From Planctomycetaceae bacterium (GTDB lineage: Bacteria; Planctomycetota; Planctomycetia; Planctomycetales; Planctomycetaceae), in NCBI GenBank assembly GCA_021732415.1, contig JAKFVC010000271.1, forward strand, positions 1 to 33,003: a DNA stretch of 33,003 nucleotides, written 5' to 3'. The translations under genes were made by a program, and so were the position numbers. The notes below the pieces were generated by a model, which worked only from the letters and a program-made list of their open reading frames with translations, was not told the origin of the DNA and searched no databases. Below are positions 935 through 17,387 of the stretch, one piece after another; position 1 is the stretch's first letter, and every line of letters begins with the position of its first letter.

Positions 935-1086
935 CGAAATCCGAATGACGAAAGAATGACCAATGACCCAATGACGAACTGATGACTCGAGTTTTGATCC
1001 GTGATTGCTGGCGCGAATTGTCGGATCAAGACTCCTATCTCATTTGGTCATTCGTCATTGGTCATTCTTTCGTCATTCGGATTTCG
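935..1086. repeat. Nested inverted repeat downstream of the 296-916 gene
   Basis: Outer arms 935-966 and 1055-1086 are perfect reverse complements over 32 bp and contain short internal repeats of the type AATGACGAA / AATGACCAA. Inside them a second pair, 989-1001 and 1022-1034, pairs at 12 of 13 positions and ends in GATCCG/CGGATC. The RNA would fold into a long two-tier hairpin. It lies 18 bases after a stop codon, so it could end transcription of the upstream gene, although there is no U-run. Confidence 0.85.
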
Positions 1087-1180
1087 TCATTCCCAGAAGA
1101 CTCATTCTTGCAATCTGCCCGCCCACAGGGGATATTCGAGGGTTCCTGATTCGAAGAAGTTCCCGCCAACCCGCAACATC

Positions 1181-1257
1181 AGCCGGCACGCGTTAGCGTC
1201 CGGTTCCTTCGGGAAATCAGGGCCAAAATCGGAACCGGGGGCTAACGCCCTCCGGCT
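1181..1257. repeat. Imperfect inverted repeat just upstream of trpC
   Basis: Arms 1181-1207 and 1231-1257 pair over about 27 bp with roughly five mismatches; each contains a GTTAGCG/GCTAACGCC-type core. The right arm ends 36 bases before the chosen trpC start. It could form a hairpin in the trpC leader. I see no leader peptide rich in Trp codons, so there is no evidence for classical attenuation. Confidence 0.6.
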
Positions 1258-1293
1258 AATGAATAATCCGTGCAGATCGGCAGCAGTCTTACG

Positions 1294-2082
1294 ATGTACG
1301 TCAATGTTTTGGATGAGATCGTCGCGCACAAGCGGTTGGAAATCGCCGCCGCCAAGCAGTTGCGTCCCGCGAGTGAACTCGAAGCCCGCCTGGCAGATGC
1401 TCCCCCCGTCCGCGACTTCTGTGCCGCTCTGCGATCAGCCGCGCCCCAACTGGGACTGATCGCCGAGATCAAGAAGGCGTCACCCTCTGCCGGCTTGATA
1501 CGGGCCAACTTTGATCCGGTCGAAATTGCTCGCATCTACGAGCAGCACGGCGCGAATTGCCTGAGCGTCCTCACCGACGAGAAATATTTCCAAGGCCATC
1601 TCGATTACCTGGTCGCCGTGCGGGGGGCCGTCTCGCTGCCGGTGTTGCGCAAAGATTTCATCATCGATCCGTACCAGGTTCTGGAAGCCCGCGCCGCGGG
1701 TGCCGACTGCATTCTGCTGATCGCCGAGTGCCTGAACGACTGCCAGATGCGGGACCTCTATTTCTATGCCTCGAATCTCGGGCTGGAAACACTGATCGAA
1801 ATCCACGAGGCCGAAAACCTTGACCGCGTGTTGAAGCTGGAACCGGGACTGATCGGCATCAACAATCGCGACCTCAAGGCGATGATCACCGATCTCGACC
1901 ATACGGTCCGCCTGAGTCCCCGCATTCCGGCCGACTGCCTGCTGGTCAGCGAGAGCGGCATCAAGACGCACGCGGATGTCGTAAAGCTGCAGCAAGCCGG
2001 CGCGGCGGCGATGCTCGTGGGCGAGTCATTGATGAAGCAGCCGGATATTGGTGCTGCCGTCGATCGCTTATTCGGCAAGTAG
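1294..2082 (+). CDS. trpC: Indole-3-glycerol phosphate synthase
   Basis: Converts 1-(2-carboxyphenylamino)-1-deoxyribulose 5-phosphate into indole-3-glycerol phosphate, the fourth step of tryptophan synthesis, in the cytoplasm. The 262-residue product is a complete single-domain (beta/alpha)8 barrel of usual length. Hallmarks are EIKKASPSAG at 59-68 (catalytic Glu59 and Lys61), VLRKDFIIDPYQV with Lys120, IEIH with Glu169, INNRDL with Asn190, and LVSESGI at 217-223. The C-terminal AAAMLVGESLM forms the phosphate-binding end of the barrel. The ATG at 1294 gives the usual N-terminus (MYVNVLDEIVAHKR); a GTG at 1270 would add eight residues and has no better ribosome binding site. No other trp gene is adjacent, so trpC is separate from any trp operon here. 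Confidence 0.95.
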   Translation: MYVNVLDEIVAHKRLEIAAAKQLRPASELEARLADAPPVRDFCAALRSAAPQLGLIAEIKKASPSAGLIRANFDPVEIARIYEQHGANCLSVLTDEKYFQGHLDYLVAVRGAVSLPVLRKDFIIDPYQVLEARAAGADCILLIAECLNDCQMRDLYFYASNLGLETLIEIHEAENLDRVLKLEPGLIGINNRDLKAMITDLDHTVRLSPRIPADCLLVSESGIKTHADVVKLQQAGAAAMLVGESLMKQPDIGAAVDRLFGK

Positions 2083-2384
2083 GTTCGACGCGTGGAACCG
2101 GCTCACCTGCCTGATCTCTTCTGGCTATCCGCGAGAGTTCGAGGGCGCACATCGTCTTGGGATTTTCCATAAACTCAGTTCGTATCTGATGTTATCAAGT
2201 TTGTTGATGGGCTAGTCGGCGAAAATACCAGGAATTCGAGCGGTGAGTTGATTGGATGGGTCAGCCGCCACCATTCACAATGGATATCGAGACCTGGCGT
2301 TTTTCAATTCGTAAGCGGCGAGCGCTCTGAGATGCGTCGGAGGGGTACACACCGAATGCCGGGATCCGTGTGTCTCAGTCAAAG

Positions 2385-2930
2385 AAGTCGAAGGGATCAA
2401 AGAGTTCAAAGAAGTCGCGCCGTAACAATCCAGATCCAGCCCCCGTGGCAGACGCTGCCAGCGTCTGTGGCCAATGACGGTAGCAGCGTCGGCCACGAGG
2501 GCACTTGGCACTTGGGCATTCGAAGGGATCAAAGAAGTCAAAGAGTTCAAAGAAGTCGCCTCAGAAAAATATCGACCCGGCTCGCCTGATTTCTGGTGGG
2601 TGAAGAATTCAAAGAAATCAAAGAGTTCAAAGAAGTCACGCCGTAACAATCCATATCCAGCCCCCGTGGCAGACGCTGCCAGCGTCTGTGTCCACCGATG
2701 CTAGCAGCGTCGGCCAAGGGGGCACTTGGGCGGTCGAAGGGATCAAAGAAATCAAAGAGTTCAAAGAAGCCACGTCGTAACAATCCAGATCCAGCCCCCG
2801 TGGCAGACGCTGCCAGCGTCTGTGGACGCCGAAGCTAGCAGCGTCGGCCACGGGGGCACTTGGCACTTGGGCGGTCGAAGGGGTCAAAGAAGTCGAAGAG
2901 TTCAAAGAAGTCGAAGGGATCGATCACCAC
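2385..2930. repeat. Cluster of three tandem palindromic and purine-rich repeats
   Basis: Three copies of a roughly 110-170 bp composite unit occupy about 2385-2560, 2604-2774 and 2775-2930. Each unit has two parts. The first holds the palindrome CAGACGCTGCCAGCGTCTG followed by a second stem partner (AGCAGCGTCGGCCA). The second is purine-rich with a nine-base period, variants of TCAAAGAAG. The stretch 2083-2384 ahead of the cluster holds no supported gene. Short open frames through the repeats (Lys/Ser/Arg-rich) follow the nine-base period and have no ribosome binding sites. A related block in inverted orientation lies at 32809-33003. Confidence 0.85.
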
Positions 2931-2973
2931 TGAGGCATGCGATTTCGGACCTTGATCTGTTAAAATTTGCGAC

Positions 2974-4269
2974 ATGAAATTCATTCATGCCGCAGATCTG
3001 CACATCGATAGTCCCCTACGAGGCCTGGAAGAATACGCGGGTGCGCCTGTGGAACGCGTCCGTAATGCCACGCGCGAAGCGCTCGTGCGACTCATCGATC
3101 TCTGCCTTGATCAGCAGGCGGCATTTCTCATTGTTGCCGGGGATCTATTCGATCACGACTGGAAGGATTTCAACACGGCCCTGTTCGTGGTGAAGCAATT
3201 TCAGCGGCTCGACAAGGAGGGAATCCCGGTTTATGTCATCCGTGGAAATCACGACTCGCGGGCCGAAATGTCGTTGCAAGTCCCTTGGCCGACTGGTGGT
3301 CGTTTCAAGCTGTTCAATCATAAGCAGGCCGAAACGGTCATCCTGCCCGAGCTGGGCGTCGCCATCCATGGAATGAGTTTCGCCGAACGTCACGTGCGGG
3401 AGAGTCTACTCCCCAAGTACCCTGCCCCGCTGAGCGGCATGTTGAACATCGGGATTCTGCACACCAGCGCGACCGGGGCGAGTGGCATTGAGGACCACCC
3501 GAGCTATGCTCCGTGTACGATCAAAGAGCTCGTCGACATGGGCTATCAATACTGGGCCCTGGGACATGTCCATCAGCGGCAGATTCTGCACGAAGGGGCC
3601 TGCCGCATTGTGTATCCCGGGAATACCCAGGGCCGGCACATTCGAGAAACGGGACCGAAGGGCTGTGCCGTCGTCACGGTCGAAGATGGCGAAATCGAGA
3701 GCATCGAGTTCGTCTCAACTGACGTCCTGCGCTGGAAAGAGGTGGAGCTGGAGTTATCCGCCCACCATCATCTCGACGACCTGTACGAGCTGGTCGCCAC
3801 CCAACTCAAAACGGAACTCGTCGCGGCGGACGAACGGCTGTTGGGAGTGCGGCTGAACATCCAGGGGGGCTGTGCAGCTCACCGGCAGTTGAATAGCGAT
3901 GCGGCGCGACGCGAGGCCGATGCGGCGTTGCGGGCGCGTGTGGGCGAGATTTCCGACGACGTCTGGCTCGAAAAGATCAAATGGCAAACACGGCCACCAG
4001 TTGATCGAAACGTGTTGAAAGAGGGGCAGGATTTTATCGGCGAACTGTTAAGAGACGTCGACCAACTGGCAGCCGATGACACCCAGTTCGCCGCATTTCT
4101 CGCCTGCCTGCAGCCGCTGATCGACAAAACAGAATCGGATTTGCTGGCCGGTCGGGACGAAGATGACAAGTCCGAAAAGCTGGTTGATTTCGCGAGTGCG
4201 GCCCAGCGGCGCGATTGGCTGAAGGCGGCAGAGGGGTTGTTGTTGAATCAGCTCACAAAAGACGACTAG
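2974..4269 (+). CDS. SbcD/Mre11-like DNA repair metallophosphoesterase (YhaO-like)
   Basis: Predicted manganese-dependent DNA nuclease, probably the nuclease subunit of a complex with the SMC-like protein encoded next. The 431-residue product begins with a calcineurin-like phosphoesterase domain of about 230 residues with all metal ligands visible: ADLHIDSPL (Asp8, His10), GDLFDH (Asp57), RGNHDSR (Asn92, His93, Asp94), ILHTSATG, and GHVHQRQ. The rest (about 260-431) is the family's C-terminal region, likely involved in DNA or partner binding. Length and motif order fit the YhaO group of the SbcD/Mre11 superfamily. The ATG at 2974 gives the canonical MKFIHAADLH start although no strong Shine-Dalgarno is visible. 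It is followed at 270 bases by the yhaN-like gene, a conserved gene pair in other bacteria; the gap holds a palindromic element. Confidence 0.9.
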   Translation: MKFIHAADLHIDSPLRGLEEYAGAPVERVRNATREALVRLIDLCLDQQAAFLIVAGDLFDHDWKDFNTALFVVKQFQRLDKEGIPVYVIRGNHDSRAEMSLQVPWPTGGRFKLFNHKQAETVILPELGVAIHGMSFAERHVRESLLPKYPAPLSGMLNIGILHTSATGASGIEDHPSYAPCTIKELVDMGYQYWALGHVHQRQILHEGACRIVYPGNTQGRHIRETGPKGCAVVTVEDGEIESIEFVSTDVLRWKEVELELSAHHHLDDLYELVATQLKTELVAADERLLGVRLNIQGGCAAHRQLNSDAARREADAALRARVGEISDDVWLEKIKWQTRPPVDRNVLKEGQDFIGELLRDVDQLAADDTQFAAFLACLQPLIDKTESDLLAGRDEDDKSEKLVDFASAAQRRDWLKAAEGLLLNQLTKDD

Positions 4270-4324
4270 TTGAATACGACGTCATACAATTGGCGAACTA
4301 TGCGAGATGGAATTTTTGTATGTA

Positions 4325-4524
4325 TCCCGGAGGGATTAAAGAGAGTAGCCGGTGGTTGAGCGCAGCGACACCACCGGATAGGAGAATTAGGTGTATTCGA
4401 CCCTGGAGGGGTCGCAGAGCAACGTTTCTGCGACCCCTCCAGGGTCGGAATTCAATCGTTTATCGCAATCCGGTGGTGTCGCTGCGCTCAACCACCGGCT
4501 ACTCTCTGTGACCCCTCCGGGGTC
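4325..4524. repeat. Nested palindromic element between the yhaO-like and yhaN-like genes
   Basis: Outer arms 4341-4379 and 4468-4506 are perfect reverse complements over 39 bp. Inner arms 4399-4417 and 4428-4446 are perfect over 19 bp with a ten-base loop. Each outer arm is itself palindromic (CCGGTGGT ... ACCACCGG). CCCGGAGGG at the left edge can pair with CCCTCCGGGG at the right edge. The right edge lies 15 bases before the yhaN-like ATG. A second member of the same family is at 16073-16310. No target-site duplication is obvious. It resembles a MITE or large REP-type element with no coding capacity. Confidence 0.9.
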
Positions 4525-4539
4525 TGTGACGGACCTTCT

Positions 4540-7500
4540 ATGCGTTTGCGACGATTGCACGCTTATCGTTATGGCCACTTTGCTGAAGCCTCGCTCGACT
4601 TTGTCGGGAATGGCTTGCAGGTTATTCACGGACACAACGAAGCGGGCAAATCGACTCTATTGCAGTTTGTCCGTGAGATTCTGTTTGGATTCGCGGTCCA
4701 GAACCCCTATGCATTTGCCGGCGAAAAGTTGGAAGGCGCTGCGTTGCTGGAACTGGCTGATCGCCGGTCAATCGAACTGCGGCGGCGGAAAGGACGCCCC
4801 GACAACTTGAGCCTCAGTCAAGGAGGCGAAACCGCCAGTTCGAACGAAGCCGAAGTCCAATTGCTGCTCGGCGGGGCGAATGCGTCACTCTATCAACGCG
4901 TGTTTGCGTTTGGTCTGGATGAGCTCGCCACCGGACAAGACAGCCTCAAGATGGAGGCCGTACAGCATGCCCTCCATGGGAGCGGCGTCGGTGGATTGAT
5001 TCACCCCCAGAAAATTCTCGATCTGCTCTCTAAAGAAGCGATGGAGATTTTTAAGGAAAAGGGCAACAAGCAGGAAATCCCGGCGATTTGTGCGGAGATC
5101 AAAAAGCACAGCACCGAACTCAAAGCGAAGATCACCAAGACCGAAACCTATCTGCAGCGCAAGCGAGATTACGATACGGCGCGGGAAGAGGCAGAACGTC
5201 TCGCGGAGCAATTGTCGCAACTGCGACGTGAGTACGTCCAAGTGAAAAAACTGGCGACTGCGTTTCCAATCTGGCGGGAACTGACTGACCTGCACGAACG
5301 CCGCGGTGGATTGGGGGCCGTCTCTCCCTTGGCGGCCGACGCACGCCAGAAGTTCGACAAGCTGCAGGATGAGCTGAAGCGTTTGGCGAAAGCGAGCGGG
5401 ACACTCGAACGCGACATTCAACACAACGAAGCCGAATTGCAAAAGAATCCGGCACAGAACGAATGGCTGAATCTACGCTCCCAGATCGAACGTGCGCGGG
5501 AACTCATCAAGTCGGTCGAGGAAGCTCGCCGCGATTTGCCGTTGTTGCAGGCGGAACTTCATTCCAATCAACAGCAAGTGCAGCACGGCATCGAAGACGT
5601 CATCTCCAACTGGACGGTCCAGCATCTCGAGGATTTTCGTTGCGATGCCGGTCAGCGCCGCCGTTGCGAGCAACTGGCCGAAACGAAACGGGAACTCGAC
5701 AACGAATCGATTCGACTCACAGAGCGCGAGACAGCACTCACAAAGGAGCGGGCGGAGACTCAGGCAGACCTGGCCGCCATTGGCGAGATTGCGGACGTCA
5801 CGGCCCTGCAAGCTCTGCTCAATAGTCATGCCGATCAGGTGGCGCGAGAGACCGAACTAACTCGCCTGACGAAAGAGCACTCCAAACAACAGCGAGCTCT
5901 GACGACGCTGATTCGCAAGCTGTCGCCTCCCCTGCCCGCCGGCACGACGCAGGTGGAAATGCTGCCCGTGCCGCCGCTCGAACAGATCAAACATTATCAA
6001 CAGCATTTCGCGGAGACTCGCAAACGAGTCACCTTCGCCGAACAATCTTTGTCGGAAGCGAATGAACGACTCCAGCAACAGTCGCGTGATCTGGCAACTG
6101 CTCGCGGCAGCTTATTAGAGATCCCCACGCAGCAAGGTTTACGCGACCTCCGGGCGCAGCGCGATGCCACCTGGCAACAGATTCAGCAGCACTTCATCCC
6201 CGGACAGGCGACTGCGGCTACCAAACCTTCGTCGATTGAAAAGTCTGTTGAATCACTCCCAGCAGAATTTGAACGTGCCACCGTTGCGGCCGACAATTAC
6301 TCCGACAAGATGTTCAGCAACGCCTCACTGGTCCATCAACAGGAACAGGTCGATCAATATCAGTCGGCGCGGGCAACGAAGCAGGACGAGCTAACCGCTC
6401 AGTTGGCCGCGATGGACAAGCTGACCGAACAATGGCGCGTCCTGTGGCAGCCTTGTGCATTCGAACCGTTTGACCCCGACACGATGGTTGCCTGGAAGAG
6501 CCAGCACGATCAAGCCTTGGAACTAATCGCCAAACTCGCGGATCTACAGGATGACATGGGACGACTGCAAAATGAGAGTCAGGCATTTTCCGCGCGACTC
6601 ACATTGGCCTTGCCTGAGTTTCAAGGGGGACCGGAACAGCGACTGGAGGCGGCGCAACAGCGGGTCGCGCATTGCCAGCAGCAGACGCAGGAACTGAAAA
6701 CGTGCCAGCGCCAGGTCGCACGATTCGAAAAATCGGGCGAACAACTAGCCGAAGAGCAACACTCGCTGGCGCGGCGACGCGACGAATTCATTCAGGACTG
6801 GCACAGTTGGCTGACCGCTCAACAATTTCCTGCTGACTGGCATCCCGATCTGGCCATGACTGTCGTCAGCCGTCTGCAAAGTTTACGCGACAAGTTACAA
6901 CAGATCCCTGGGTTGGAAAACCGGATTGCGGCGATGAGCCAGCGGTTGGCGGAATTCGATCCGTTCGTGCTCGAACTGTGCGAACAAGTCGCACCTGACT
7001 GGAAGCTGCAGCCTACAGAAGTCGCCGCGCGGCATCTCGCCGATCGTCTGCAGGCGGCCATCACGACCGATCAAAAACGAAATGAGTTGTCACGCGAACT
7101 CCAGAAGCATCGCCTGAAGTTGGATGAAGTCCGGCAACAGCAACTCGTTGCAGCCGGCGAGCGTGACAAGCTACTGGAGTTGGCCCAAGCCACGACTGAC
7201 GAGCAGTTTCTGCAGGAAGCACACCGAGCCGAGACGATTCGCGATCTCGAACAGCAGATAGAGGCCAAGGAGCAACAATTAACGCATCTGCGGGAATTCG
7301 AAGAGGAAGCGGCATTCACTCAGCAGTTGCAGGCTGTGGACTATCCGGCGCTGGAGGCTTCACGCCAGAGTCTCGAACAACGCATTCGCGAGCTCGAAGA
7401 TCAAGAGCGGCAAGCCAACGAACGCAAGGGAGCCACGGGCCTCGCGCTGGACCAGTTGGATGGCAGTGCCGCAGCGGCGGAGATCCAAAGCACGATCACC

Positions 7501-8028
7501 GAGCGACGTGCGGCATTGGCCAATGCGGTGGACCGGTATGTTCCATTGTTGTTTGCTCGCCAATTGCTGCAACAGACTTTGCAGCGCTTCGAGAAAGAAT
7601 CGCAACCGGAGATGCTGCGAGAAGCCTCCGACCTGTTCTCGGCGATGACCGGCGGACGCTATCACCGAGTCGAACGGCCGCGCGATGCCAATCGCCCCTT
7701 GCTCGTGTATCGCGCGGACAACAATGAAGACTTGGAGCCGGATCAACTCAGTACGGGCACGCGCGAGCAACTGTACCTGGCAATCCGGCTGGCCTATGTC
7801 CTGCACTATTGCACGAAGGCGGAACCGCTGCCGATTGTGCTGGATGATGTGCTGGCGAACTTTGATCCGGTCCGGACTCGACGTACGCTGGAAGCCTTGG
7901 GAAACATCACCGACCGCGTGCAGGTCCTGCTGTTTACCTGCCATCCGCACGTGGCGGAACTGGCACAGAACGTCTTCCCGGACTTGCAACCGATTGCCGT
8001 GCCAAGTTCCAATGTGGCGAAAGTATGA
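4540..8028 (+). CDS. SMC/Rad50-like AAA family ATPase (YhaN-like)
   Basis: Predicted ATPase partner of the upstream nuclease, acting in DNA double-strand-break repair or DNA-end processing. The 1162-residue protein has the split-ATPase layout of Rad50/SbcC. An N-terminal half (about 1-200) carries Walker A GHNEAGKST at 31-39. A very long Gln/Glu/Leu/Arg-rich coiled-coil region follows (about 200-1000). The C-terminal half has the signature LSTGTREQLYLAIRLAY and Walker B PIVLDDVLANFD. Central cysteines are scattered and no CXXC zinc hook is visible, unlike Rad50 and SbcC. The RLRRLHAYRYGHFAEASLDF opening fits the family (AAA_27-type). The ATG at 4540 lies directly after the palindromic element, with no strong Shine-Dalgarno, so translation may depend on coupling or on the folded leader. 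It is longer than Bacillus subtilis YhaN (under 1000 residues), the difference lying in the coiled coil. Confidence 0.9.
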   Translation: MRLRRLHAYRYGHFAEASLDFVGNGLQVIHGHNEAGKSTLLQFVREILFGFAVQNPYAFAGEKLEGAALLELADRRSIELRRRKGRPDNLSLSQGGETASSNEAEVQLLLGGANASLYQRVFAFGLDELATGQDSLKMEAVQHALHGSGVGGLIHPQKILDLLSKEAMEIFKEKGNKQEIPAICAEIKKHSTELKAKITKTETYLQRKRDYDTAREEAERLAEQLSQLRREYVQVKKLATAFPIWRELTDLHERRGGLGAVSPLAADARQKFDKLQDELKRLAKASGTLERDIQHNEAELQKNPAQNEWLNLRSQIERARELIKSVEEARRDLPLLQAELHSNQQQVQHGIEDVISNWTVQHLEDFRCDAGQRRRCEQLAETKRELDNESIRLTERETALTKERAETQADLAAIGEIADVTALQALLNSHADQVARETELTRLTKEHSKQQRALTTLIRKLSPPLPAGTTQVEMLPVPPLEQIKHYQQHFAETRKRVTFAEQSLSEANERLQQQSRDLATARGSLLEIPTQQGLRDLRAQRDATWQQIQQHFIPGQATAATKPSSIEKSVESLPAEFERATVAADNYSDKMFSNASLVHQQEQVDQYQSARATKQDELTAQLAAMDKLTEQWRVLWQPCAFEPFDPDTMVAWKSQHDQALELIAKLADLQDDMGRLQNESQAFSARLTLALPEFQGGPEQRLEAAQQRVAHCQQQTQELKTCQRQVARFEKSGEQLAEEQHSLARRRDEFIQDWHSWLTAQQFPADWHPDLAMTVVSRLQSLRDKLQQIPGLENRIAAMSQRLAEFDPFVLELCEQVAPDWKLQPTEVAARHLADRLQAAITTDQKRNELSRELQKHRLKLDEVRQQQLVAAGERDKLLELAQATTDEQFLQEAHRAETIRDLEQQIEAKEQQLTHLREFEEEAAFTQQLQAVDYPALEASRQSLEQRIRELEDQERQANERKGATGLALDQLDGSAAAAEIQSTITERRAALANAVDRYVPLLFARQLLQQTLQRFEKESQPEMLREASDLFSAMTGGRYHRVERPRDANRPLLVYRADNNEDLEPDQLSTGTREQLYLAIRLAYVLHYCTKAEPLPIVLDDVLANFDPVRTRRTLEALGNITDRVQVLLFTCHPHVAELAQNVFPDLQPIAVPSSNVAKV

Positions 8029-8038
8029 TAAGGATAAG

Positions 8039-8310
8039 ATCGGCAGCGAATTAAGAGAGGCAGCCAATGAATACAAATACTCCAGGAGGGTACTGATGAC
8101 AGACAGTACAACATGCGGTTGATCATCAGAATTTAAACCACGAATAACACAAATGACACGAATTTTAGAGAATTGTAATTCGTGTCATTTGTGTTATTCG
8201 TGGTTCAAAACTCTTGTTCGCCTGGTCAATGAAAGTTGTACTACGAGTTTCAGATTTTGGTTAGCCTTCTGAATTGTCTCATTCGCTGTCTCCTTTAATT
8301 CGCTGCCAAT
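8039..8310. repeat. Nested inverted repeat after the yhaN-like gene
   Basis: Inner arms 8136-8164 and 8177-8205 are perfect reverse complements over 29 bp, with a 12-base loop. Outer arms 8039-8070 and 8279-8310 match at 27 of 32 positions (core GGCAGCGAATTAA). The element starts 11 bases after the yhaN-like stop codon and fills almost the whole gap to the next gene. The inner hairpin could end or slow transcription, or protect the mRNA 3' end, but has no U-tract. Confidence 0.85.
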
Positions 8311-8341
8311 AACTTAAATAAATATCTGGGAGATTAATTCG

Positions 8342-9436
8342 ATGCGATTGTCGACACCTAGCGTCGTCGTGCTTGTTATTGGTTTCTTCGGGCTGTTCCC
8401 CATTCGCCTGCAGGCCGCCGATGTCTGGCCCACTCTGCCGGCCGCGAACGGCACTGTGAAAATCCCGGCTCAGGAGTGGCCGCTCAGGCCAGGTCCGCGA
8501 CAGGTGTTGGTGACCGTTCACTTCCCCGGTGGTAAGCTGGCCAACGTGACCGAGAAAACGGGACTGATGTTGTCATTGCACAACTGGGGCGGGACTGGTT
8601 GCGCGGGGACAGCGAATCCTGTCCAACTGGCCGAGCACTTCAATGTCGTTTGTTTGTGCGTCGATTACCTGCAGAGTGGCGACAAGGATTTGCCGGAACT
8701 GGAACCGTATGACTTCGGCTATCTGCAGGCCCTGGACGCACTGCGGGCATTGAGCTGGCTCGAAAAATCGCTGGTCGAACAGAAGCTCGCGTTCGCGAAA
8801 GGCCGAGTCTATGCCACGGGCGGATCGGGTGGCGGGAATGTCACGCTGATGGTCAATAAGCTCGCGCCGCGGACGTTTGCCTGTAACATCGACATGTGCG
8901 GCATGACTCGACTGACCGACGACATGGCCTTCAATCTGCCCGGGGGAACTGGTTTGAATGCTCGCTACAGCCGGGATCCGAGCAATCCATTTTATCTGAC
9001 GCCCGACCATCAGCAGTTGCGGTTTGTCGGTGATCCGACTCATCTGGAAGTGATGAAGAAGCTGGGGAATTCGGCGCGCGTGATCGTGGTCCATGGAGTT
9101 GACGATACGTCCTGCCCCATCGCCGATGCTCGGGAGATGGTCGCCAATATGGAGTCGGCCAAGCTGACCGTCGAACCCTGGTTCATCACTCCCGCTGAGG
9201 TCGATGGCAAGGCCATCCTGAGCCCCGGGCATTCCCTGGGCAACCGGACGCTGATTGTCTTTAAGGTCGCCGATCAGTACTTGCTGCCCGACAGCCCGAA
9301 GGCGGCCGTACGCGAGGGACCCAGCGATTTCGAACGCCGCGAGGATATTGTTTATCCCACCGTCAACGGGAGGTTTGTGATCTCGTATGCGGAGGGGTAT
9401 CCCGTTGGACGGTTTGAGAAGAAGGCCGATAAATAA
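8342..9436 (+). CDS. Secreted alpha/beta hydrolase, 364 aa
   Basis: Predicted exported serine hydrolase of the alpha/beta-hydrolase fold, closest in appearance to prolyl-oligopeptidase/esterase-like members; the substrate is unknown. A signal peptide covers residues 1 to about 25 (MRLS, then a long hydrophobic run ending LQA-AD). LSLHNWGGTG at about 78-87 looks like the oxyanion-hole strand. The nucleophile elbow is ATGGSGGGN with Ser162. A likely acid lies in VVHGVDDTSCP, and the catalytic His in LSPGHSLGN. The start is supported by GGGAG nine bases upstream. It is separated from the yhaN-like gene by the palindromic element, so it is probably its own transcription unit. Several cysteines (87, 104, 106, 181, 186) could form disulfides outside the cytoplasm. 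Confidence 0.8.
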   Translation: MRLSTPSVVVLVIGFFGLFPIRLQAADVWPTLPAANGTVKIPAQEWPLRPGPRQVLVTVHFPGGKLANVTEKTGLMLSLHNWGGTGCAGTANPVQLAEHFNVVCLCVDYLQSGDKDLPELEPYDFGYLQALDALRALSWLEKSLVEQKLAFAKGRVYATGGSGGGNVTLMVNKLAPRTFACNIDMCGMTRLTDDMAFNLPGGTGLNARYSRDPSNPFYLTPDHQQLRFVGDPTHLEVMKKLGNSARVIVVHGVDDTSCPIADAREMVANMESAKLTVEPWFITPAEVDGKAILSPGHSLGNRTLIVFKVADQYLLPDSPKAAVREGPSDFERREDIVYPTVNGRFVISYAEGYPVGRFEKKADK

Positions 9437-9899
9437 TTTGGACTGCGGTGATTCATCACCGCTTTCCTATGCAGGACCAGGCCTCGGGCTATCCAACGGC
9501 CGGTGCTCTTTGACAAGCTAATTATCCGGTGGTAGCGACGCTCAGTGACGCATCAGAATAAACTGCGCAGGAATAGAAAAACCCCCGCCCTTACGGGCTT
9601 CGCCGTGAAGGATATTTCGACGTGATGGGAGGGTGAGGCTCCTGCCGAACCGCAAGCGTCATTCGACTCTCGCCAGACTATCCGGTTCGGCAGGAGCCTC
9701 ACCCTCCCATCGACTCGAATCACGAATTGCACCAAGCTCCCTCGAAAATCCCGAGAAAAACGCCTTCACGGCGTTGCCTTACGGGACAGGACTTACCTGG
9801 ACAGTTTTTGGTGTAATGGACTCGGTAAGATCCATCGGCAACTTTAATCGCACGTCTAAACAAATTGGATAGCGGTGATAAATCACCGCAGTCCAAATT
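9435..9899. repeat. Long nested inverted repeat between convergent genes
   Basis: Outer arms 9435-9463 and 9871-9899 pair at 28 of 29 positions and contain a smaller palindrome (GCGGTGATTCATCACCGC). Inner arms 9625-9652 and 9683-9710 are perfect over 28 bp around a 30-base loop. A third, intermediate pair of 11 bp is at 9601-9611 and 9763-9773. The element starts on the last two bases of the hydrolase gene and ends 11 bases from the stop of the convergent delta-60 gene, so it fills the entire gap and could act as a two-way terminator. Confidence 0.85.
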
Positions 9900-9910
9900 T
9901 TGCTCTACTG

Positions 9911-11614
9911 TTACGTGTCTGTCGTGGTCAGATCAAACGGGATCGTCTTCTTACCGTTGGTTCCGAACCCAGCATCCAGCTCCCCTTCGGAATCGATGCG
10001 GGTCACGGCAAAGTCGGTATTTGACGGGTCAGAGGCCATCGATGCTCCGACGATCACGATCTTGCCATCCGACTGCAATGCCATGCTGTTGGCCACGTCG
10101 TAGTCGCTGCCACCCATGTTAAACGGAATCGATTTCTTGCCGTCGCTCGCGAAGAGCGTATCGAGTTCGCCGACCGACGTCAGCCTGGCAACTGAGAAGT
10201 CATAGTCACCCGAGGAACTAACCTGCGAGTAACCGCCGATGACGATACTACCATCCGACTGCACAGCGACCCCCGTGGCTTCGTCTGCGTTATCGGCCCC
10301 CAGATTGAATGGTATTGTCTTGCGGCCATCGCCACTGAATGTTTTATCCAGCGTCCCGTTCTTTTTGATTCGGGCCACGGCGAAATCAAGGTCGCCATTC
10401 GTGGCCGTCGCCGAACCAGCAACGACGATCGCGCCGTCCGATTGCAGGGCCACTGACGTCGCTCGATCAGACGCACTACCGCCGATATTGAACGCGACCG
10501 CCTTCTTGCCATCACCGCTAAAGCTATAGTCCAGGCTGCCGTTGGGTTTGACTCGGGCAACTGCAAAATCATCGTCGCCTCCCGAGCCCTTCGTATATCC
10601 CACGACCACGATACTGCCATCGGACTGAATGGCCACGGCGGCACCCGCATCATCGCCACCGCCGCTCAGATCAATCCATTTTCGGCCGTCACCCGTAAAC
10701 GACGTGTCGAGAGATCCATCCGTATTCAGGCGGGCCATGGCGATGTCTCCCGATCCACTGGCGTTCTGTTCGCAAGTGCCGACCAGCACGATCTTCCCAT
10801 CGCCTTGGATGGCGACTCCCGTCGCACGATCGTCGCCGTTGCCACCGTAGTCGAACGCCACGAGGGCCTTGCCATCGCTGCTGAAGTTGGTATCCAGCGA
10901 GCCGTCCGTATTCAGTCGCACGACAGCAAAGTCAAAGTTGCCGTTGCCGTCGCGCTGGGCATAACCGCCAACCACAATCTTGCCGTCGCTCTGGATCGCC
11001 ACACAGTTGGCGACATCGAGATCCGCGTTGAGATTGCCGTCTGCATCGACTCCACCCAGATTGAACGAGATCGTCTTTTTGCCGTTGGTACCGAACGTGG
11101 TATCCAGCGAGCCATCGGCGTTCAGGCGGGTGACGGCGAAGTCATAGTCCCCGAACGTATTCATCTGAGCGGCGCCGACCAGAATGATCTTGCCATCGGA
11201 TTGCACCGCGGTCGCAATCGCTTGATCCGAATCAATCGAGGTGGATACCGGCGTGGTCGTGCCGTCGACGGTGGTTGTTGATGTGGAGGAAGTCGTTGTA
11301 TTGCCGTCGGCATCGGTGGTCGTCGTCGTGACGGTAACCGTCGTGGTCGGATTGCCGTTGGAATCCACGCCATGCGTCGTCGTGGTCGTGCTGGTGGACC
11401 CGGCAGTGGCAGTATCCGGCTTGGGTTCGGCAGGATTTTGTGTCGCCGACTGAGTCGGGTTGGTGGCCGATAACAATTGCCGCGTTTCTAGAAACTCAAC
11501 GTGCGCCGGAGCGGGAGTTTCGAGTTGTTCGAATCGTTTACGCTTGGAGCTTCCCTGGATCCACTGATTCAGAGATTGCAACCACGAGACGGGATGCGAG
11601 GAATGCTGTGACAT
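9911..11614 (-). CDS. Delta-60 repeat surface protein with planctomycete N-terminal signature
   Basis: Probably an exported or cell-surface protein; molecular role unknown. The 567-residue product has three parts. Residues 1-50 are basic and lack a standard signal peptide but contain VEFLETRQLLSA, the LE.R.LL-type signature of many large planctomycete exported proteins. Residues about 69-127 are a Thr/Ser-rich linker. Residues about 131-567 hold seven consecutive repeats of about 60 residues built on the pattern A..VA.QSDGKIV..G / DFAVARLN.DGSLD..F..DGK, the delta-60 repeat family. Seven such units suggest a seven-bladed beta-propeller (inference). GAGGT about ten bases upstream supports the ATG at 11614. 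There is no C-terminal membrane anchor. The gene is convergent with the hydrolase and isolated on its upstream side. Confidence 0.88.
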   Translation of the reverse strand: MSQHSSHPVSWLQSLNQWIQGSSKRKRFEQLETPAPAHVEFLETRQLLSATNPTQSATQNPAEPKPDTATAGSTSTTTTTHGVDSNGNPTTTVTVTTTTTDADGNTTTSSTSTTTVDGTTTPVSTSIDSDQAIATAVQSDGKIILVGAAQMNTFGDYDFAVTRLNADGSLDTTFGTNGKKTISFNLGGVDADGNLNADLDVANCVAIQSDGKIVVGGYAQRDGNGNFDFAVVRLNTDGSLDTNFSSDGKALVAFDYGGNGDDRATGVAIQGDGKIVLVGTCEQNASGSGDIAMARLNTDGSLDTSFTGDGRKWIDLSGGGDDAGAAVAIQSDGSIVVVGYTKGSGGDDDFAVARVKPNGSLDYSFSGDGKKAVAFNIGGSASDRATSVALQSDGAIVVAGSATATNGDLDFAVARIKKNGTLDKTFSGDGRKTIPFNLGADNADEATGVAVQSDGSIVIGGYSQVSSSGDYDFSVARLTSVGELDTLFASDGKKSIPFNMGGSDYDVANSMALQSDGKIVIVGASMASDPSNTDFAVTRIDSEGELDAGFGTNGKKTIPFDLTTTDT

Positions 11615-12218
11615 GATAGACGTACCTCAAGTGTGGGGAGGGAACCCCGGTAGCGGAGAGGAGATGGGTAGGAGGCAGGGCGAGGATTTTTCGCGCGGGC
11701 GGGCAGGCTGCGGAGCGTGGTCACACAGCTCGCGTGGGGAGACAGGGGTAGCGCTTTAACAGAATGTTTGCGCGGCCTGAAAGTGTGAGAGTATCAGTGT
11801 GTGAGGGTTTGAGAGTAGAGAAAAGTCCGATCACGTTCAGGCTGTACTCTGACTCCGTTACTTTGGCACCCTCATACTCTCAAACGATTTTGATTGAGCA
11901 AACATTAAGTGAACTCTAAGGCTGGCTTGGTTTTCGATCGGCGATGTGCGGCTGGGGATCGTAATACAATCGCGTGGCAGAACGGCGATTGAATCACGGA
12001 TCAGCGAAGGGAGAACTTTGGCCGAGGTCAGTTGCGAATGAACTTGTTCGGCGTGATTTCAGATGGATAGTGGATGATCGCGAGCAGCCGGTTACCAAAT
12101 TATTTTGAAAGTTTTGAGATGGATTCAAGTTTCTGAGTGCAGTCGAAATTCTCCAGAAAAACGCGGCTTTGTCTATATGCCATTATTACTATCTCAACAG
12201 ATATCTCATTGCAGTCTC
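11615..12218. other. Gene-free stretch upstream of the delta-60 gene
   Basis: About 600 bases with no supported gene. It must hold the promoter and leader of the minus-strand delta-60 gene. A modest inverted repeat pairs GTTTGAGAGTA at 11807-11817 with its complement at 11875-11885. I cannot pick out a promoter with confidence. Confidence 0.5.
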
Positions 12219-12283
12219 GTAGCCCGACTCTCTGAGTCGGGTACTCCTCGTCGAAATGCTCCCGACTCAGAGAGTCGGGCTAC
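12219..12283. repeat. Palindrome downstream of menC
   Basis: Arms 12219-12241 and 12261-12283 are perfect reverse complements over 23 bp. Each arm is itself a small palindrome (CCCGACTCTCTGAGTCGGG). It begins 18 bases beyond the menC stop and may act as its terminator. The same family occurs at 13566-13632 on the other side of menC, and a single arm appears near 247-270. Confidence 0.85.
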
Positions 12284-12301
12284 GGCTCGGCTGCGCCGAG
12301 C

Positions 12302-13414
12302 TTACGACTTGAAAGTGGCGTGCTGGATCGTGAGTTTCGCCAGGCGATCGGCAACGGGTTCGGGCAACGAATCGGTCGCGCGAATACCCGGAGTGCCATC
12401 GGGGAGCGAGATCAGTTGCAGCGCGGGTTCGGACAGATCCTGATGATAGAACCGCGAACTCGGGAAGATGTCGGCTGGATATTTGAAATTGTCGAGCATC
12501 GCCAACGCCACGCAGATCCCCGCCCCCAGGCTGCTTTCCAGCATGCCGCCGACCCAGCACGGAATTCCGGCTCGCTGGCAGGTGTCGTGAATCTTGATGG
12601 CGTTCGTCAGGCCACCCACGCGGCCCGGCTTGATATTGACATAGCGGCAGCTTCCCAACTTGATGGCCTGCTCGACTTGGCGTACGGTCACGATACTTTC
12701 GTCGAGACAGACCGGGGTCCGAATCTGACGCTGGAGTTCAGCGTGGTCCAGTAAATCATCGTGCTGCAGCGGCTGTTCGATCATCGCCAGGTTGAATTCA
12801 TCGACTTGCTTGAAGAGGTCGATGTCCGACAACCGGTAGCCGCTGTTGGTATCGATGTGGAAGGTTTGTTTGGGATAGGCGCCCCGCACGGCTTTGAGCA
12901 CATTCAGATCCCAGCCCGGGCGGAATTTCAGCTTCACGCGCGGGAATTTGGCGGCGACCGCTTTGTCGACCGAGGCCAGCAGATCATCAATCGAATCCAT
13001 GACGCCAAAGTCGGCACCTACGGACACTTCGTTCCGAGTGGCTCCCAGGAGCCGATACAATGGCGTGTTCGTAAGCTTGCTCTGCAGACTCCACCAGGCC
13101 GTATCGAGAATTGCCTTGGAGAAGGGGTTGCCCTTATAAATGGCCAACTGCTTTTGGAGATCGTCTCCGGAGGAAATCTCCTTGCCGATCAGCGCCGGAG
13201 CCAGCCAATCGCGAGCGACCGTGAAGATACCCCCGCCCCATTCCGGGCTGTAACACGGGGCCGTCAGGGGGCAACTTTCGCCCCAGGCTTCGACCGAACC
13301 GCTGACCATGCGGCACAAAACGGCATGGGCGGCCGTGTCTTCTCCATAGGCGGTGCGCCAGGGATAGATCAACGGCATGGCGACATGGTAGAGGTCAATT
13401 CGGTCGATCCGCAT
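12302..13414 (-). CDS. menC: o-Succinylbenzoate synthase / N-acylamino acid racemase-type enzyme
   Basis: Enolase-superfamily enzyme of the MenC type 2 group. It most likely dehydrates SHCHC to o-succinylbenzoate in menaquinone synthesis; members of this group may also or instead racemise N-acylamino acids, and sequence alone does not separate the two. The 370-residue protein has the N-terminal capping domain (about 1-125) and the barrel. The catalytic set is complete: KLKFRPG with Lys161 and Lys163, HIDTNSGY with Asp188, MIEQPL with Glu213, CLDESI with Asp238, and NIKPGRVGG with Lys262. Spacing closely matches the Amycolatopsis racemase as I remember it. The ATG at 13414 gives the standard MRIDRIDLYHVAMPL start, with only a weak ribosome binding site. 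No other men gene is adjacent. It is flanked on both sides by copies of one palindrome. Confidence 0.9.
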   Translation of the reverse strand: MRIDRIDLYHVAMPLIYPWRTAYGEDTAAHAVLCRMVSGSVEAWGESCPLTAPCYSPEWGGGIFTVARDWLAPALIGKEISSGDDLQKQLAIYKGNPFSKAILDTAWWSLQSKLTNTPLYRLLGATRNEVSVGADFGVMDSIDDLLASVDKAVAAKFPRVKLKFRPGWDLNVLKAVRGAYPKQTFHIDTNSGYRLSDIDLFKQVDEFNLAMIEQPLQHDDLLDHAELQRQIRTPVCLDESIVTVRQVEQAIKLGSCRYVNIKPGRVGGLTNAIKIHDTCQRAGIPCWVGGMLESSLGAGICVALAMLDNFKYPADIFPSSRFYHQDLSEPALQLISLPDGTPGIRATDSLPEPVADRLAKLTIQHATFKS

Positions 13415-13565
13415 GGTGGGGCCTGTCAGTTGTCGGGTCTCGGTTGCTGGAAAATCAGGCGGTCTCGCGCTACGCGTTTCGCAAATCGTAGATCATCTTC
13501 TACGCGAGGTAAAGTTGCGGGGGTGATGCTTGATGGGTTATTCTGGTCTCAGGCGACCGCATTTC

Positions 13566-13632
13566 CGTAGCCCGACTCTCTGAGTCGGATGCATCGAAAC
13601 GAAGAGTACCCGACTCGGAGAGTCGGGCTACG
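13566..13632. repeat. Palindrome between menC and the threonine aldolase gene
   Basis: Arms 13566-13588 and 13610-13632 pair at 22 of 23 positions. The sequence is clearly the same family as 12219-12283. It lies in the shared upstream region of two divergent genes, menC (minus) and the aldolase gene (plus), so it could influence both promoters. Confidence 0.85.
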
Positions 13633-13696
13633 GTTCGGCGGAGCCTCACAAAAGCCGCGCCGCAATGTACCATGTCCCCCTACTTAGGACCGATTG

Positions 13697-14782
13697 ATGA
13701 GCCGAGTGATTGATTTGCGGAGTGATACCGTCACCAAGCCGAGCGCCGCCATGCGACAAGCGATGGCCAACGCCGAAGTCGGTGATGACATGAACGGCGA
13801 GGATCCGACCGTCAATCGTCTCGAAGAGATGGTCATCAAACTGTTCAACAAGGAAGCGGCCGTCTATTGCTGCTCGGGGACACAATCCAACCAGATGGCC
13901 GTCCGGGCCCATTGCCAATCGGGTGATGAGCTGTTGATTGAAGCCGGCGGACACATCGCAGGTTTCGAAGGGGGAGCTCCCGCGGCACTCAGCGGAGTCA
14001 CCTGCCGCACACTTTCGGGCAACCTCGGCATGCTCGATCTCCCGCAGTTAGAGGGCCAAATCCGAGCCGACAATCAACATCTCGCGCGGACCAAGCTAGT
14101 CTGTGTCGAGAATACGACCAACGTCGGCGGCGGGCACTGCTATCCCTTGGATATGCTGGAACGGGTCGGAAAGTGGGCTCACTCGAATGGGCTGCAAGTC
14201 CACATGGATGGTGCCCGGCTGTTTAACGCCGTGGTCGCCACCGGGCAATCTGCAGCGAAGATTTGCGAGCACATCGACAGTATCTCGGTCTGTTTTTCGA
14301 AGGGACTGGGCTGCCCGATGGGGTCGATCCTGATCGGCTCGAAGGACCTGATCTACCGTGCTCGTCGTGCTAGAAAAATGTTCGGCGGTGCCTTAAGGCA
14401 AGCGGGTATCGTGGCGGCCTCGGCGGTCTACGCTCTCGAAAACAATGTCGAACGACTCGCTGTTGATCACGAGAACGCCCAGGCATTTGCGGAGGAGATC
14501 CGCAAGATTCCTGGAATCAAGACGGATGCTTCCGGGGTGCCGACGAACCTGGTCTTCTTTGAGGTCGATCCCAAACTGGGTAACGCGTCGCAGCTGTCCT
14601 ATGCGTTAAAGCAGCGCGGGGTTCTGATCAATGCGGGAGGCAAGTCTCGCCTGCGAGCCTGCACGCATCTGGATGCATCGCGTGAGGACTTGTTGAGCGC
14701 GGCCAAGGTGTTGGCGGAATGCGTTCAAGCCGGGTTTTCGCAGTTTCCCGGTGCGGCGTCGGGGCCGTATGCACGCGGGTAG
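13697..14782 (+). CDS. ltaE: Low-specificity L-threonine aldolase
   Basis: PLP-dependent enzyme that cleaves L-threonine and L-allo-threonine to glycine and acetaldehyde in the cytoplasm. The 361-residue protein is full length. It opens with [13 protein letters not shown], the family hallmark, followed by [27 protein letters not shown] forms part of the PLP phosphate site. [10 protein letters not shown] and [12 protein letters not shown] (Asp and Arg contacts) precede [14 protein letters not shown], where Lys202 is the expected PLP Schiff-base lysine. The C-terminal domain is intact. The ATG at 13697 is chosen over the overlapping TTG at 13694. The gene is divergent from menC and followed by a nested inverted repeat. 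The subtype (L-threo, L-allo or low specificity) cannot be proved from sequence. Confidence 0.92.
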
Positions 14783-14792
14783 AACTGCGCGT

Positions 14793-15030
14793 AGGCGAGC
14801 GTCCGGCGTAAGCCGGAGGTTGTTAGCGACTCAGGCAAATCAATAGATTCTGTGGGTGCCACTGGCTCCGCCAGTGTTTTGCGGACGGCGTATAGACTAC
14901 CCGGCACTGGCAGTGCCAGTGGCACCCAACTGAGGAGCTTATTGATTTGTTTTGCTCATCTGTTTAAGTCACGTGAAATGGTTGATTGATCGCGTCTAAC
15001 AACCATCCGGCTTACGCCGGACGCTCGCCT
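14793..15030. repeat. Nested inverted repeat between convergent genes
   Basis: Outer arms 14793-14826 and 14996-15030 pair over 34 bp with one extra base; they contain GTCCGGCGTAAGCCGGA. Inner arms GGGTGCCACTGG (from 14854) and CCAGTGGCACCC (ending 14927) are perfect over 12 bp, and each carries a further small stem. The element fills the gap between the aldolase stop and the stop of the convergent hydrolase, where a two-way terminator would be expected. Confidence 0.85.
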
Positions 15031-15053
15031 AAATGCGATCCGTGTGCCATCGA

Positions 15054-15989
15054 TTACTTGGGCTTTGTCGCGGGCGTAGTCATCCCGACCAGCGTCTTCT
15101 CCAGTAACGCGTTGAACGCGTCCGGGTACTCCATCATCAGAAAATGCCCCGCGTCGGGAAGTGTGAGGACTTCGAACTGTGGGGCGTATTTCTTGCCCGC
15201 TTCGACCTTCTTGGGATCTCGAACCGCGTTGATGCAGACCAATGGTACCTTGACCTCTTTCATCCGCGGACGTTCGAATTCGTTGGCAAAATCGAGCATC
15301 GCCTGAAACGCGCTCACACCGACATCGCCGGGAGCCGAGGACATCTTGGTGACGATTTTCTCGATCAACACGGGATTCGTCTTCGCGGTGAAGAAGTCGT
15401 GTTCGTGACGGAGTGCTTCTCGCATCCCCGCCGCAAAATCCTTCTCGAAGGGCTTGCGATACTCGGCCATTTGCTCGGCTGAGTATTTCTCTTCGGGATC
15501 GGTCAGCGTGTCGACTCCCACCAGCCCGACCAGCCGCTCCTTCAGCAGCGGGGCCGCTTCGAGCATCACGGGACCACCCATCGAATGTCCGACCAGAACG
15601 ACCGACTTCAGTTGCAGCTTCTCGACCACTGCGGCCACATCTTTGCCGAATGCCGCCATCGTCCAATTCTTCCGCCCCAGCCCCGACTTGCCGTGTCCGC
15701 CCAAGTCAATCGCCACAACCCGTCGTGATTTGGCGAAATGGTCGAGTTGCGGTTGCCAGAAGGTACGATCACAACACCAGCCGTGAATGAACACCAACGC
15801 CGGTTCGCCTGCTCCGTGGACCTCGTAGCGGATGGTGACTCCATCCGCCGAGGCGACTTCACCGGTCACCGCTTCCTTCTTATCAGCCGGTTTTGCCGGG
15901 TCACTGCCCGCCAACACAAACAATCCACACCCAACCAAGATCAAGTTGGCCAGTCCAAGACTTACGCCGAATCTGCGAGGAGAGTTCAT
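15054..15989 (-). CDS. Exported alpha/beta hydrolase, 311 aa
   Basis: Predicted esterase- or epoxide-hydrolase-like alpha/beta hydrolase anchored in or exported across the membrane; substrate unknown. The start is placed at 15989 (MNSPRRFGVSL), not at the in-frame ATG 45 bases earlier, because it gives an N-terminus with two arginines and a hydrophobic stretch. That stretch contains LVGC (Cys21), which matches a lipobox; cleavage after LAGS is the alternative. The fold motifs are complete: VFIHGWCCDRTFW (oxyanion region, 67-79), DLGGHGKSG, nucleophile elbow VGHSMGG with Ser136, a candidate acid in NAVRDP, and the catalytic His in PDAGHFLMME. It ends convergently with the aldolase gene across an inverted repeat. 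A second, unrelated secreted alpha/beta hydrolase lies at 8342-9436. Confidence 0.82.
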   Translation of the reverse strand: MNSPRRFGVSLGLANLILVGCGLFVLAGSDPAKPADKKEAVTGEVASADGVTIRYEVHGAGEPALVFIHGWCCDRTFWQPQLDHFAKSRRVVAIDLGGHGKSGLGRKNWTMAAFGKDVAAVVEKLQLKSVVLVGHSMGGPVMLEAAPLLKERLVGLVGVDTLTDPEEKYSAEQMAEYRKPFEKDFAAGMREALRHEHDFFTAKTNPVLIEKIVTKMSSAPGDVGVSAFQAMLDFANEFERPRMKEVKVPLVCINAVRDPKKVEAGKKYAPQFEVLTLPDAGHFLMMEYPDAFNALLEKTLVGMTTPATKPK

Positions 15990-16072
15990 TTGATGCGTCC
16001 CGATTAACAGAAGAGATTGCAGCCCCTGCAACACTTTAGCGGAATGGCCTGAGATCGTGTATTCGCAGCTAT

Positions 16073-16310
16073 CCCGGAGGGATTAAAGAGAGTAACCGGT
16101 GGTTGAGGAGCGGAGCGACGACACCACCGGCTGTCGTCCCATCGCTTCCCCGATCCTGAAGGGATCGCAGAGCGTTGAGAACCCGGTCGATCGTTACTTC
16201 GTTCCCTCTGGCATCCCTTCAGGATGCGGCGGTCATATCTGGGGATTGACCGGTGGTGTCGTCGCTCCGCTCCTCAACCACCGGCTACTCTCTGCGACCC
16301 CTCCGGGGTC
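16073..16310. repeat. Second copy of the 4325-4524 palindromic element family
   Basis: Outer arms 16088-16130 and 16250-16292 pair at 42 of 43 positions. An inner pair of 13 bp (ATCCTGAAGGGAT with its complement) lies at about 16153-16165 and 16213-16225. Edges (CCCGGAGGGATTAAAGAGAG on the left, CCCCTCCGGGGTC on the right) match those of 4325-4524, while the inner palindrome differs in sequence. It sits upstream of the 15989 hydrolase start and 30 bases downstream of the M14 peptidase stop, between two co-oriented minus-strand genes. Confidence 0.9.
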
Positions 16311-16339
16311 AAACCATCACATCTCCATCCCTGAGTTGC

Positions 16340-17257: not shown

Positions 17258-17279
17258 CGAATCCCTTCGTGCGGTCATC

Positions 17280-17358: not shown

Positions 17359-17387
17359 AAAGTAAGGCTGCTTGAGCGCTGCCAGAA

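Follow-up and report, generated by a model that had tools for sequence, protein, structure and literature searches.

Palindromes in the gaps between genes of a planctomycete are, with considerable probability, gene-less mobile elements, whose nesting inside one another arose either from the joined ends of Y1 transposons or from the insertion of one element into the loop of another. The DNA in question is a stretch of 33,003 nt from a Planctomycetaceae bacterium (GenBank assembly GCA_021732415.1, contig JAKFVC010000271.1, positions 1 to 33,003), hereafter called the window, which, as C99, is part of the host genome of 9.87 Mb. An earlier note on this sequence had described six gaps with nested double palindromes and had offered two processes for them, namely palindromes inserting into the loops of other palindromes, or two-tier RNA hairpins maintained by selection where transcripts end. 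It was found that the palindromes belong to families, that such families bracket Y1 genes, that outer and inner families pair promiscuously, and that palindromes are present or absent at orthologous sites of relatives. Mobility of the palindromes is very likely.

Two-tier palindromes in the window

All six elements were indeed found in gaps, with their outer arms where the earlier note had placed them, and none is more than ~60 nt away from the stop codon that closes an open frame, in line with the note, which had stated this for most of them. Both tiers pass the inverted-repeat threshold in four of the six, namely 4325, 8039, 9435 and 14792 (in the following, brackets give the arm length and the match between the arms). 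Element 2 (4325; 4324-4524, + strand) is a gene-less two-ended unit with outer arms at 4326-4379/4468-4521 (54 nt, 94%) and inner arms at 4398-4418/4427-4447 (21 nt, 100%). Element 6 (16073; 16073-16310, + strand) has outer arms at 16073-16130/16250-16307 (58 nt, 91%) and an inner pair that is visible in the predicted fold but falls below the threshold; its arms are of the same family as those of element 2, which bears out the sharing of sequence between two of the six that had been noted.

Elements 3 and 4 are composites, each combining two unrelated families, one outer and one inner. In element 3 (8039; 8039-8310, no strand), the outer family GGCAGCGAATTAAAAGAGGCAGCGAATG, with arms at 8039-8070/8279-8310 (32 nt, 84%), encloses an inner element at 8132-8209 (no strand) of family AACCACGAATAACACAAATGACACGAAT, with arms at 8132-8164/8177-8209 (33 nt, 97%). 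Element 4 (9435; 9435-9899, no strand) has an outer doublet of family AATTTGGACTGCGGTGATTCATCACCGC, with arms at 9435-9470/9864-9899 (36 nt, 92%), and an inner element at 9587-9778 (no strand) of the RAYT-associated family GGGAGGGTGAGGCTCCTGCCGAACC, with arms at 9616-9652/9683-9719 (37 nt, 92%). Element 5 (14792; 14792-15031, no strand) consists of outer family TAGGCGAGCGTCCGGCGTAAGCCGGA, with arms at 14792-14817/15006-15031 (26 nt, 100%), and an inner part at 14853-14928 of family GGGTGCCACTGGC, with arms at 14853-14876/14905-14928 (24 nt, 92%). The weakest of the six is element 1 (929-1092, no strand), the outer arms of which, at 929-967/1054-1092 (39 nt, 97%), are built from degenerate AATGACGAA-like direct repeats and recur in the same genome, with few alignments spanning the interior (~71% identity); its inner pair at 989-1001/1022-1034 measures 13 nt with one mismatch (P = 0.003, 300 shuffles). 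The frame that precedes it (275-916) had no Pfam match.

Genome-wide families

The sequences of the elements are not private, but are members of genome-wide families. Own-genome DNA searches, in which the best 40 of 41 to 374 candidates were scored per query, so that copy numbers are lower bounds, returned other copies, of the arms at least, for all five elements searched (4325, 8039, 9435, 14792 and 929); 16073 was assigned by family comparison, with no separate search. With the 200-bp query of 4325, 40 places were scored, the query locus among them, and 39 span at least positions 2-197. In the search with 9435 (best 40 of 374 scored), all matches other than itself were confined to 9587-9778.

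The wider survey used a sample of 1.23 Mb, made up of the window and 60 interior stretches of 20 kb, each covering positions 5,001-25,000 of a larger contig, with genes called by a simple longest-open-reading-frame rule. It contained 349 inverted repeats, 258 of them intergenic, at densities of 1.43 per kb in intergenic and 0.086 per kb in coding DNA; in 20 stretches of 20 kb, 118 repeats passed the threshold in the real sequence and none after shuffling. The 258 intergenic palindromes fell into 69 arm families, 33 of which had at least two members, and an arm copy was found elsewhere in 1.43 Mb for 244 of them.

The idea that loops are private to each palindrome (90 of 151 multicopy-arm palindromes had no loop copy) was dropped, since short loops miss the E-value and the loops of family 1 showed a common consensus by eye. 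As a separate observation, also by eye, each arm in families 3, 4, 6, 8 and 10 (for example window 8132-8164; L134:4049; L102:16047) consists of a motif of 7-8 bp repeated three times in direct orientation, the arms being inverted about mostly short loops. The bases of this motif change in concert between and within the families (CACAGAA, CACGAAT, CACGGAT, CACAGAG, CGCAAAG); a partner gene was not found for these families.

Y1 genes and the structure of their ends

The host genome yielded 15 matches to PF01797 (13 above cut-off) and 11 to NF047646 (one above cut-off), together representing 16 distinct genes for Y1 (HUH-type) single-strand transposases. Of these, 12 each have arms of a single family on both sides (all of L041-L045 and L049-L054, plus L227); bracketing is weak for one (L055) and absent for three (L046, L047 and L048). 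When the inner arms of fixed units are counted, 92 of the 258 sampled palindromes belong to Y1-bracketing families.

The element with gene L045 (C13:15189-15527) has both ends of the 4325/16073 family. Each end comprises a hairpin H1 (self-complementary GACTCCGGAGGAGTC), the tag GTAG, a hairpin H2 (CCGGTGG...CCACCGG), ~30 nt, and a hairpin H3 (CACCCTGAAGGGGTG), the whole element being laid out as a three-hairpin end, the gene, and then the inverted three-hairpin end. Its protein matches PF01797 with 66 bits, and NF033573 with 49.8 bits, under the cut-off of 55. The gene-less 4325-4524 matches this element at 1335-1432 and 1981-2036, and 16073-16310 matches it at 1335-1430 and 1940-2036, i.e., at both ends in either case. 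In 4325, the left end reads H1 (4324-4336), GTAG (4345-4348), H2 (4349-4377) and H3 (4398-4414), and the right end has the same order reversed, with H3 at 4431-4447; in 16073, the outer arms are H1/H2, the inner hairpins are H3, and the left tag is GTAA. In 4325 and 16073, the nesting very likely reflects how a Y1 transposon is built at its ends, an origin that the earlier note did not foresee. L041, L042 and L044 follow the same plan with other sequences, and both of their tiers are common to gene-less units in the sample. Together with L045 and L051, these genes are bracketed by long inverted repeats, and the five proteins score best as IS200/IS605.

The individual hairpins were compared in family 14, in which 12 sequences were readable (10 gene-less copies from the own genome, the orthologue in the relative G003, and L045), while two of the 14 (16073 and L016) lacked a readable tag at both ends. 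H1 differs between left and right in 11 of the 12, each side pairing with itself, the exception being L045. Since the sides differ and yet each self-pairs, it is the local hairpin, and not the long stem, that has been kept, for H1 at least.

These structures point to the following route. Several Y1 elements appear to have two or three hairpins per end, with the ends as inverted copies; if the gene were lost and the ends came to lie side by side, the terminal hairpins would form the outer arms, and the subterminal hairpin the inner arms. For 4325 and 16073, such joining of ends is very likely the source of the nesting, and the common layout of unrelated sequences would then be due to the Y1 end structure. 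The bracketing Y1 proteins presumably move the gene-less copies in trans.

Flanking by copies of one repeat, as in RAYT genes, was seen for family 1 at L052, family 0 (the inner family of 9435) at L054, family 19 at L050, and family 5 at L053 and L227. NF047646 is the best match for the proteins of L046, L049, L050, L052 and L054, above cut-off only for L046, which is not bracketed. The C-terminus of the L049 protein has a weak DnaA match (35.8 bits, far under cut-off); DnaA-type domains are present in TIRYT subclass 2.1 (PMC6006769). The Y1 protein of L051 (1069-1881, - strand; 271 aa) may contain two Y1 domains in one chain, as judged from motifs by eye: a Y motif (YIAGQ) is present in the first half, which lacks HUH, an HUH-like DHIH is present in the second, and the Pfam match covers residues 54-127 only. 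In two surveys, one of them covering three places, the open frames between distant inverted copies of partnerless families did not look transposase-like by eye, the two of L140 being the only ones scanned. At L140:11407-13027, a single case, a phage-integrase-family gene and a gene for a phosphopantetheine-site protein lie between two palindromes of family 3 that point the same way.

Outer palindromes with different inner ones

In the sample, the same outer family was repeatedly found with different inner families: outer family 20 with inner family 2, 3 or 16; outer family 31 with 3 or 10; outer family 11 with 0 or 25+6; and outer family 1 with 0, 2, 17, 21 or 44. The outer family of 8039 encloses a short loop at three of seven other places and an unrelated palindrome at two, the remaining two being unclear. 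The outer/inner pair of 14792 is repeated in six of seven other loci inspected, the seventh being a contig that ends early; since its outer family holds other inner families elsewhere (L107 and L142), this composite may have become a unit.

Relatives were matched via one gene of the window and are mostly metagenome-assembled genomes of Planctomycetaceae, the nearest being JAQGHS010000699.1 (L056), with 97% protein identity; over the genes of the window, DNA identity is 87-90% for G003 and 76-80% for G002. The best single case of a guest in a host loop is L114:8312, the arms of which are identical in G003 (22/22 twice), whereas the loop is 23 nt here and 104 nt in G003. In three members of this family, the loop measures 23-31 nt, and the guest in G003 is a 68-bp GTAG...CTAC repeat with fixed ends. 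With 40 candidates scored per genome, this repeat matched at no fewer than 40 places in G003, 38 of them over almost its whole length, and at no fewer than 29 in the host genome. At the orthologous site of L146:8203 and L220, the same outer palindrome encloses a different inner one.

Within the window, G003 has both 4325 and 8039, the identity being 88-100% in the arms and 69-85% in the spacers, and at the site of 9435, G003 has a compact hairpin of 38 bp (by eye) in place of 465 bp. L056 carries unrelated palindromes at the sites of 14792 and 16073, that at 16073 reaching the contig end. In L090, a more distant relative, an unrelated palindrome occupies the site of 4325, and none reaches the threshold at the sites of 8039 and 9435. 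Outside the window, 32 outermost nested outers were considered, of which 11 were dropped because all their inner families occur in fixed units; of the 21 kept, three (numbers 8, 15 and 17) were not comparable, as the relative's contig ends there, and 18 were compared, 16 with G003 and two with G002. Sites 0 and 11 and the outer arm of 16, being below threshold, were read by eye. At five of the 18 (number 0 by eye), the relative shares the outer family but has another inner palindrome or none; at one it has the same inner with one outer arm, and at another one outer arm is left.

Overall, these pairings, the orthologous sites and the multicopy guest uphold the insertion of palindromes into loops, as the earlier note had it, for 8039, 9435 and sites outside the window, but not for 4325/16073 and 14792, which are recurrent units. 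Palindromic elements would land in the loops of others with the host stem left intact, which would give 8039, 9435 and the triple nests described below, and a composite of this kind could afterwards be propagated as a whole, which may have happened with 14792. Insertion is the likely origin of the nesting in 8039 and 9435.

Two further observations were made at orthologous positions. The arms were kept in the orthologous gap of relatives in eight of 31 own palindromes (loops of 6-120 nt), a set that is not random, since the relative's regions were picked around composite sites. In two of these eight same-arm cases, the loop is inverted relative to its orthologue (8165-8176 against G003, and 12242-12260 against L056), the alignment scores being -5 and -2 direct, +6 and +7 inverted, and about -0.4 and -0.8 for shuffles (standard deviation ~2). 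In addition, L090 lacks the DUF5122 gene (9911-11614) and its flanks, and there the gene at 9424 is the direct neighbour of that at 12297.

Frequency of nesting

The sample contained 45 nested pairs, with 40 different outers (41 pairs if the window is left out), and no interleaved pair. When the same units were placed at random within this intergenic space, 8.7 +/- 3.0 nested pairs resulted (the highest of 200 simulations was 21), and 4.5 interleaved pairs were expected. Nested arms are thus more frequent than palindrome density would produce, a comparison that the earlier note had proposed as a possible refutation. With the inners of fixed units removed and all units held in their own gaps (9 of 244 units were not assignable to a gap), 27 nested units were observed against 15.3 +/- 2.3; in a stricter model that closed the 20 nt beside each gene, the expectation was 20.0 +/- 1.9, and 27 was reached in none of 2000 simulations. 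Leaving fixed pairs aside, 29 inner palindromes were counted in 9.9 kb of loop sequence, i.e., ~2.9 per kb, compared with 1.41 per kb in other intergenic space and 2.63 per kb in convergent gaps. Triple nests are also present, for example at L107:8228-8571 and L118:4387-4727. A preference for loops is suggested, in that they may be favoured, and not just tolerated, as landing places.

Alternative explanations and points of weakness

Several results weigh against the origin from mobile elements by joined ends or loop insertion. The margin over the stricter placement model is modest; insertions that break an arm are invisible, so that any count favours nesting; and the density in loops is close to that in convergent gaps, so that loops may simply be permissive. 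For 166 of the 258 sampled palindromes, no Y1 gene was found for the family, and none of the 16 Y1 loci is flanked by families 11, 31, 10, 20, 16 or 67, which comprise the outer one of 9435, the outer and inner ones of 8039 and of 14792, and that of 929. In L051, where the plan is similar, only the outer tier is common to its unit, and H3 is the same on the left and right in 9 of the 12 family 14 sequences, as long-range pairing would likewise predict. At the compared sites, the relative has an unrelated palindrome at 8 of 18 and no long palindrome at three, and at these 11 the history is unreadable. A clean empty site with an exact junction, from which the presence or absence of a target-site duplication could be read, was not obtained. 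Even at L114:8312, the G003 loop minus its guest is still ~13 nt longer than the own loop. Finally, the compact hairpins in the relative (at 9435 and at L093:6637) could be products of later deletion between two hairpin copies; G003 alone gives no direction for them, which are polarised only by the family-norm loop length.

It is unlikely that the palindromes are two-tier RNA hairpins, selected as terminators or 3' end protectors at transcript ends, with their sequence differences due to convergence. Some observations would suit such a role: convergent gaps carry 2.63 palindromes per kb, tandem gaps 1.33 and divergent gaps 0.79, 72 of 102 tandem-gap palindromes are closer to the upstream stop, and arms change more slowly than spacers between the own genome and G003; REPs are also regarded as transcribed and acting as RNA elements by Di Nocera et al. 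(PMC3733652). The same source, however, reports the same position bias for REPs elsewhere, and density near stops equally fits removal from promoters. Selection on RNA predicts an excess of G-U mismatches, but on the transcribed strand of tandem gaps, 53 G-U stood against 56 A-C (21/42 in convergent gaps, where the strand is arbitrary, and 12/12 in divergent ones). A T-run directly follows the hairpin in 1 of 102 tandem-gap palindromes, as in 1 of 102 mirror controls, unlike an intrinsic terminator, and the left and right H1 differ as described above. RNA terminators as the main explanation were rejected on the mismatch counts, the T-runs and this hairpin asymmetry. Of the RNA-hairpin proposal in the earlier note, what stands is the position near stops and in convergent gaps, and the palindromes may have a secondary use in transcript ends.

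That inner and outer arms always form one fixed unit, with no insertion, is very improbable. Such behaviour is seen in 4325/16073, in the family pairs (17,18), (23,24) and (0,0), in (43,46) via the L041 match, and largely in 14792. As a general rule it is refuted by the promiscuous family pairings, by the different inners at the site shared by L146:8203 and L220, and by L114:8312, with a short loop of the family norm in one genome and a filled loop in the other; the fixed unit that the earlier note had put forward as the opposing case holds for three of the six elements. There is similarly little chance that the palindromes were born in place by template switching during replication, with nesting as the outcome of repeated switching. 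The loop inversions between orthologues in two of the eight same-arm cases are what arm-to-arm exchange would give, and private extensions common to both arms of one element were seen by eye. Against this, 244 of the 258 palindromes have arm copies elsewhere, and the G003 guest is a multicopy repeat with fixed ends. Template switching may nonetheless maintain and flip palindromes.

A bolder extension of the mobile-element explanation is that loops are the preferred landing sites of Y1 elements, that elements stack by generation and composites become replicating units, so that nests are an ordered record of transposition, and that three-hairpin inverted IS200-like ends represent a distinct transposon architecture; this is offered tentatively, as a rather doubtful possibility. 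If loops were preferred targets, nests could serve as a relative clock for element families, and congeneric genomes would make the process directly countable. With mobility accepted, palindromes of unknown origin at transcript ends can be assigned to named families of mobile elements, some of which have candidate transposases, and the structure of transposon ends is by itself enough to produce a common nested layout. The IS200-like genes with three-hairpin inverted ends would be well suited to examining how HUH enzymes deal with ends in inverted orientation.

Comparison with known systems

Like REPINs and their RAYT genes (Bertels and Rainey 2011, PMC3116915; Di Nocera et al. 2013, PMC3733652), the palindromes include inverted doublets with GTAG/CTAC ends and a variable spacer, RAYT-type genes are flanked by the same repeats, and locations are mostly extragenic, with convergent and tandem gaps favoured. 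Unlike in those systems, many families occur at once and nest mutually in two to three tiers, and 4325/16073 have an extra hairpin outside the GTAG tag and an IS200-like, not RAYT-like, gene. TIRtrons and TIRYTs (PMC3733652) share with them the Y1 genes within long inverted repeats and the dispersed gene-less copies of these repeats; TIRYTs are RAYT-like, whereas L041, L042, L044 and L045, which have two-tier ends, and L051 score best as IS200/IS605. The PATEs of Haloquadratum (Dyall-Smith et al. 2011, PMC3119063) are likewise gene-less, end-only derivatives of IS605-type elements, and SMR-A, a small mobile repeat that inserts into their near-terminal palindromes, resembles the guests described here. 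PATEs have no inverted terminal repeats, whereas the ends here are inverted, which gives the nested palindrome, and the guests come from many families. In A. variabilis, T. roseum and H. neapolitanus, REP dimers lie within another palindrome as they do here (PMC3733652), but with one guest family and one kind of host palindrome, in contrast to the many-to-many combinations that change between relatives. Thus, the main ingredients, i.e., REPs in palindromes, Y1 genes with inverted repeats, and end-only IS605-type derivatives, have precedents. In literature titles and abstracts, which covered few subscription papers, neither many-to-many nesting of such families nor IS200-like genes with three-hairpin inverted ends was found.

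Other features of the window

Two plain GTAG...CTAC doublets (12218-12284 and 13565-13633, both without strand) are of one family, which also stands on both sides of the RAYT-type gene L052; the arms of the second were not found in the orthologous gap of L056. Both show the REPIN layout, in which two short hairpins are inverted relative to each other and GTAG is outermost, whereas 4325 and 16073 as such do not, the tag being internal and the extra hairpin H1 lying outside it. An Rfam scan of the window at gathering scores gave no matches. Clusters of the CAGACGCTGCCAGCGTCTG palindrome family (family 2, with 16 members in the sample) are located at 2439-2857 and 32813-32998, with several copies inverted, and an open frame of 3334 aa extends from 18593 to 28597.

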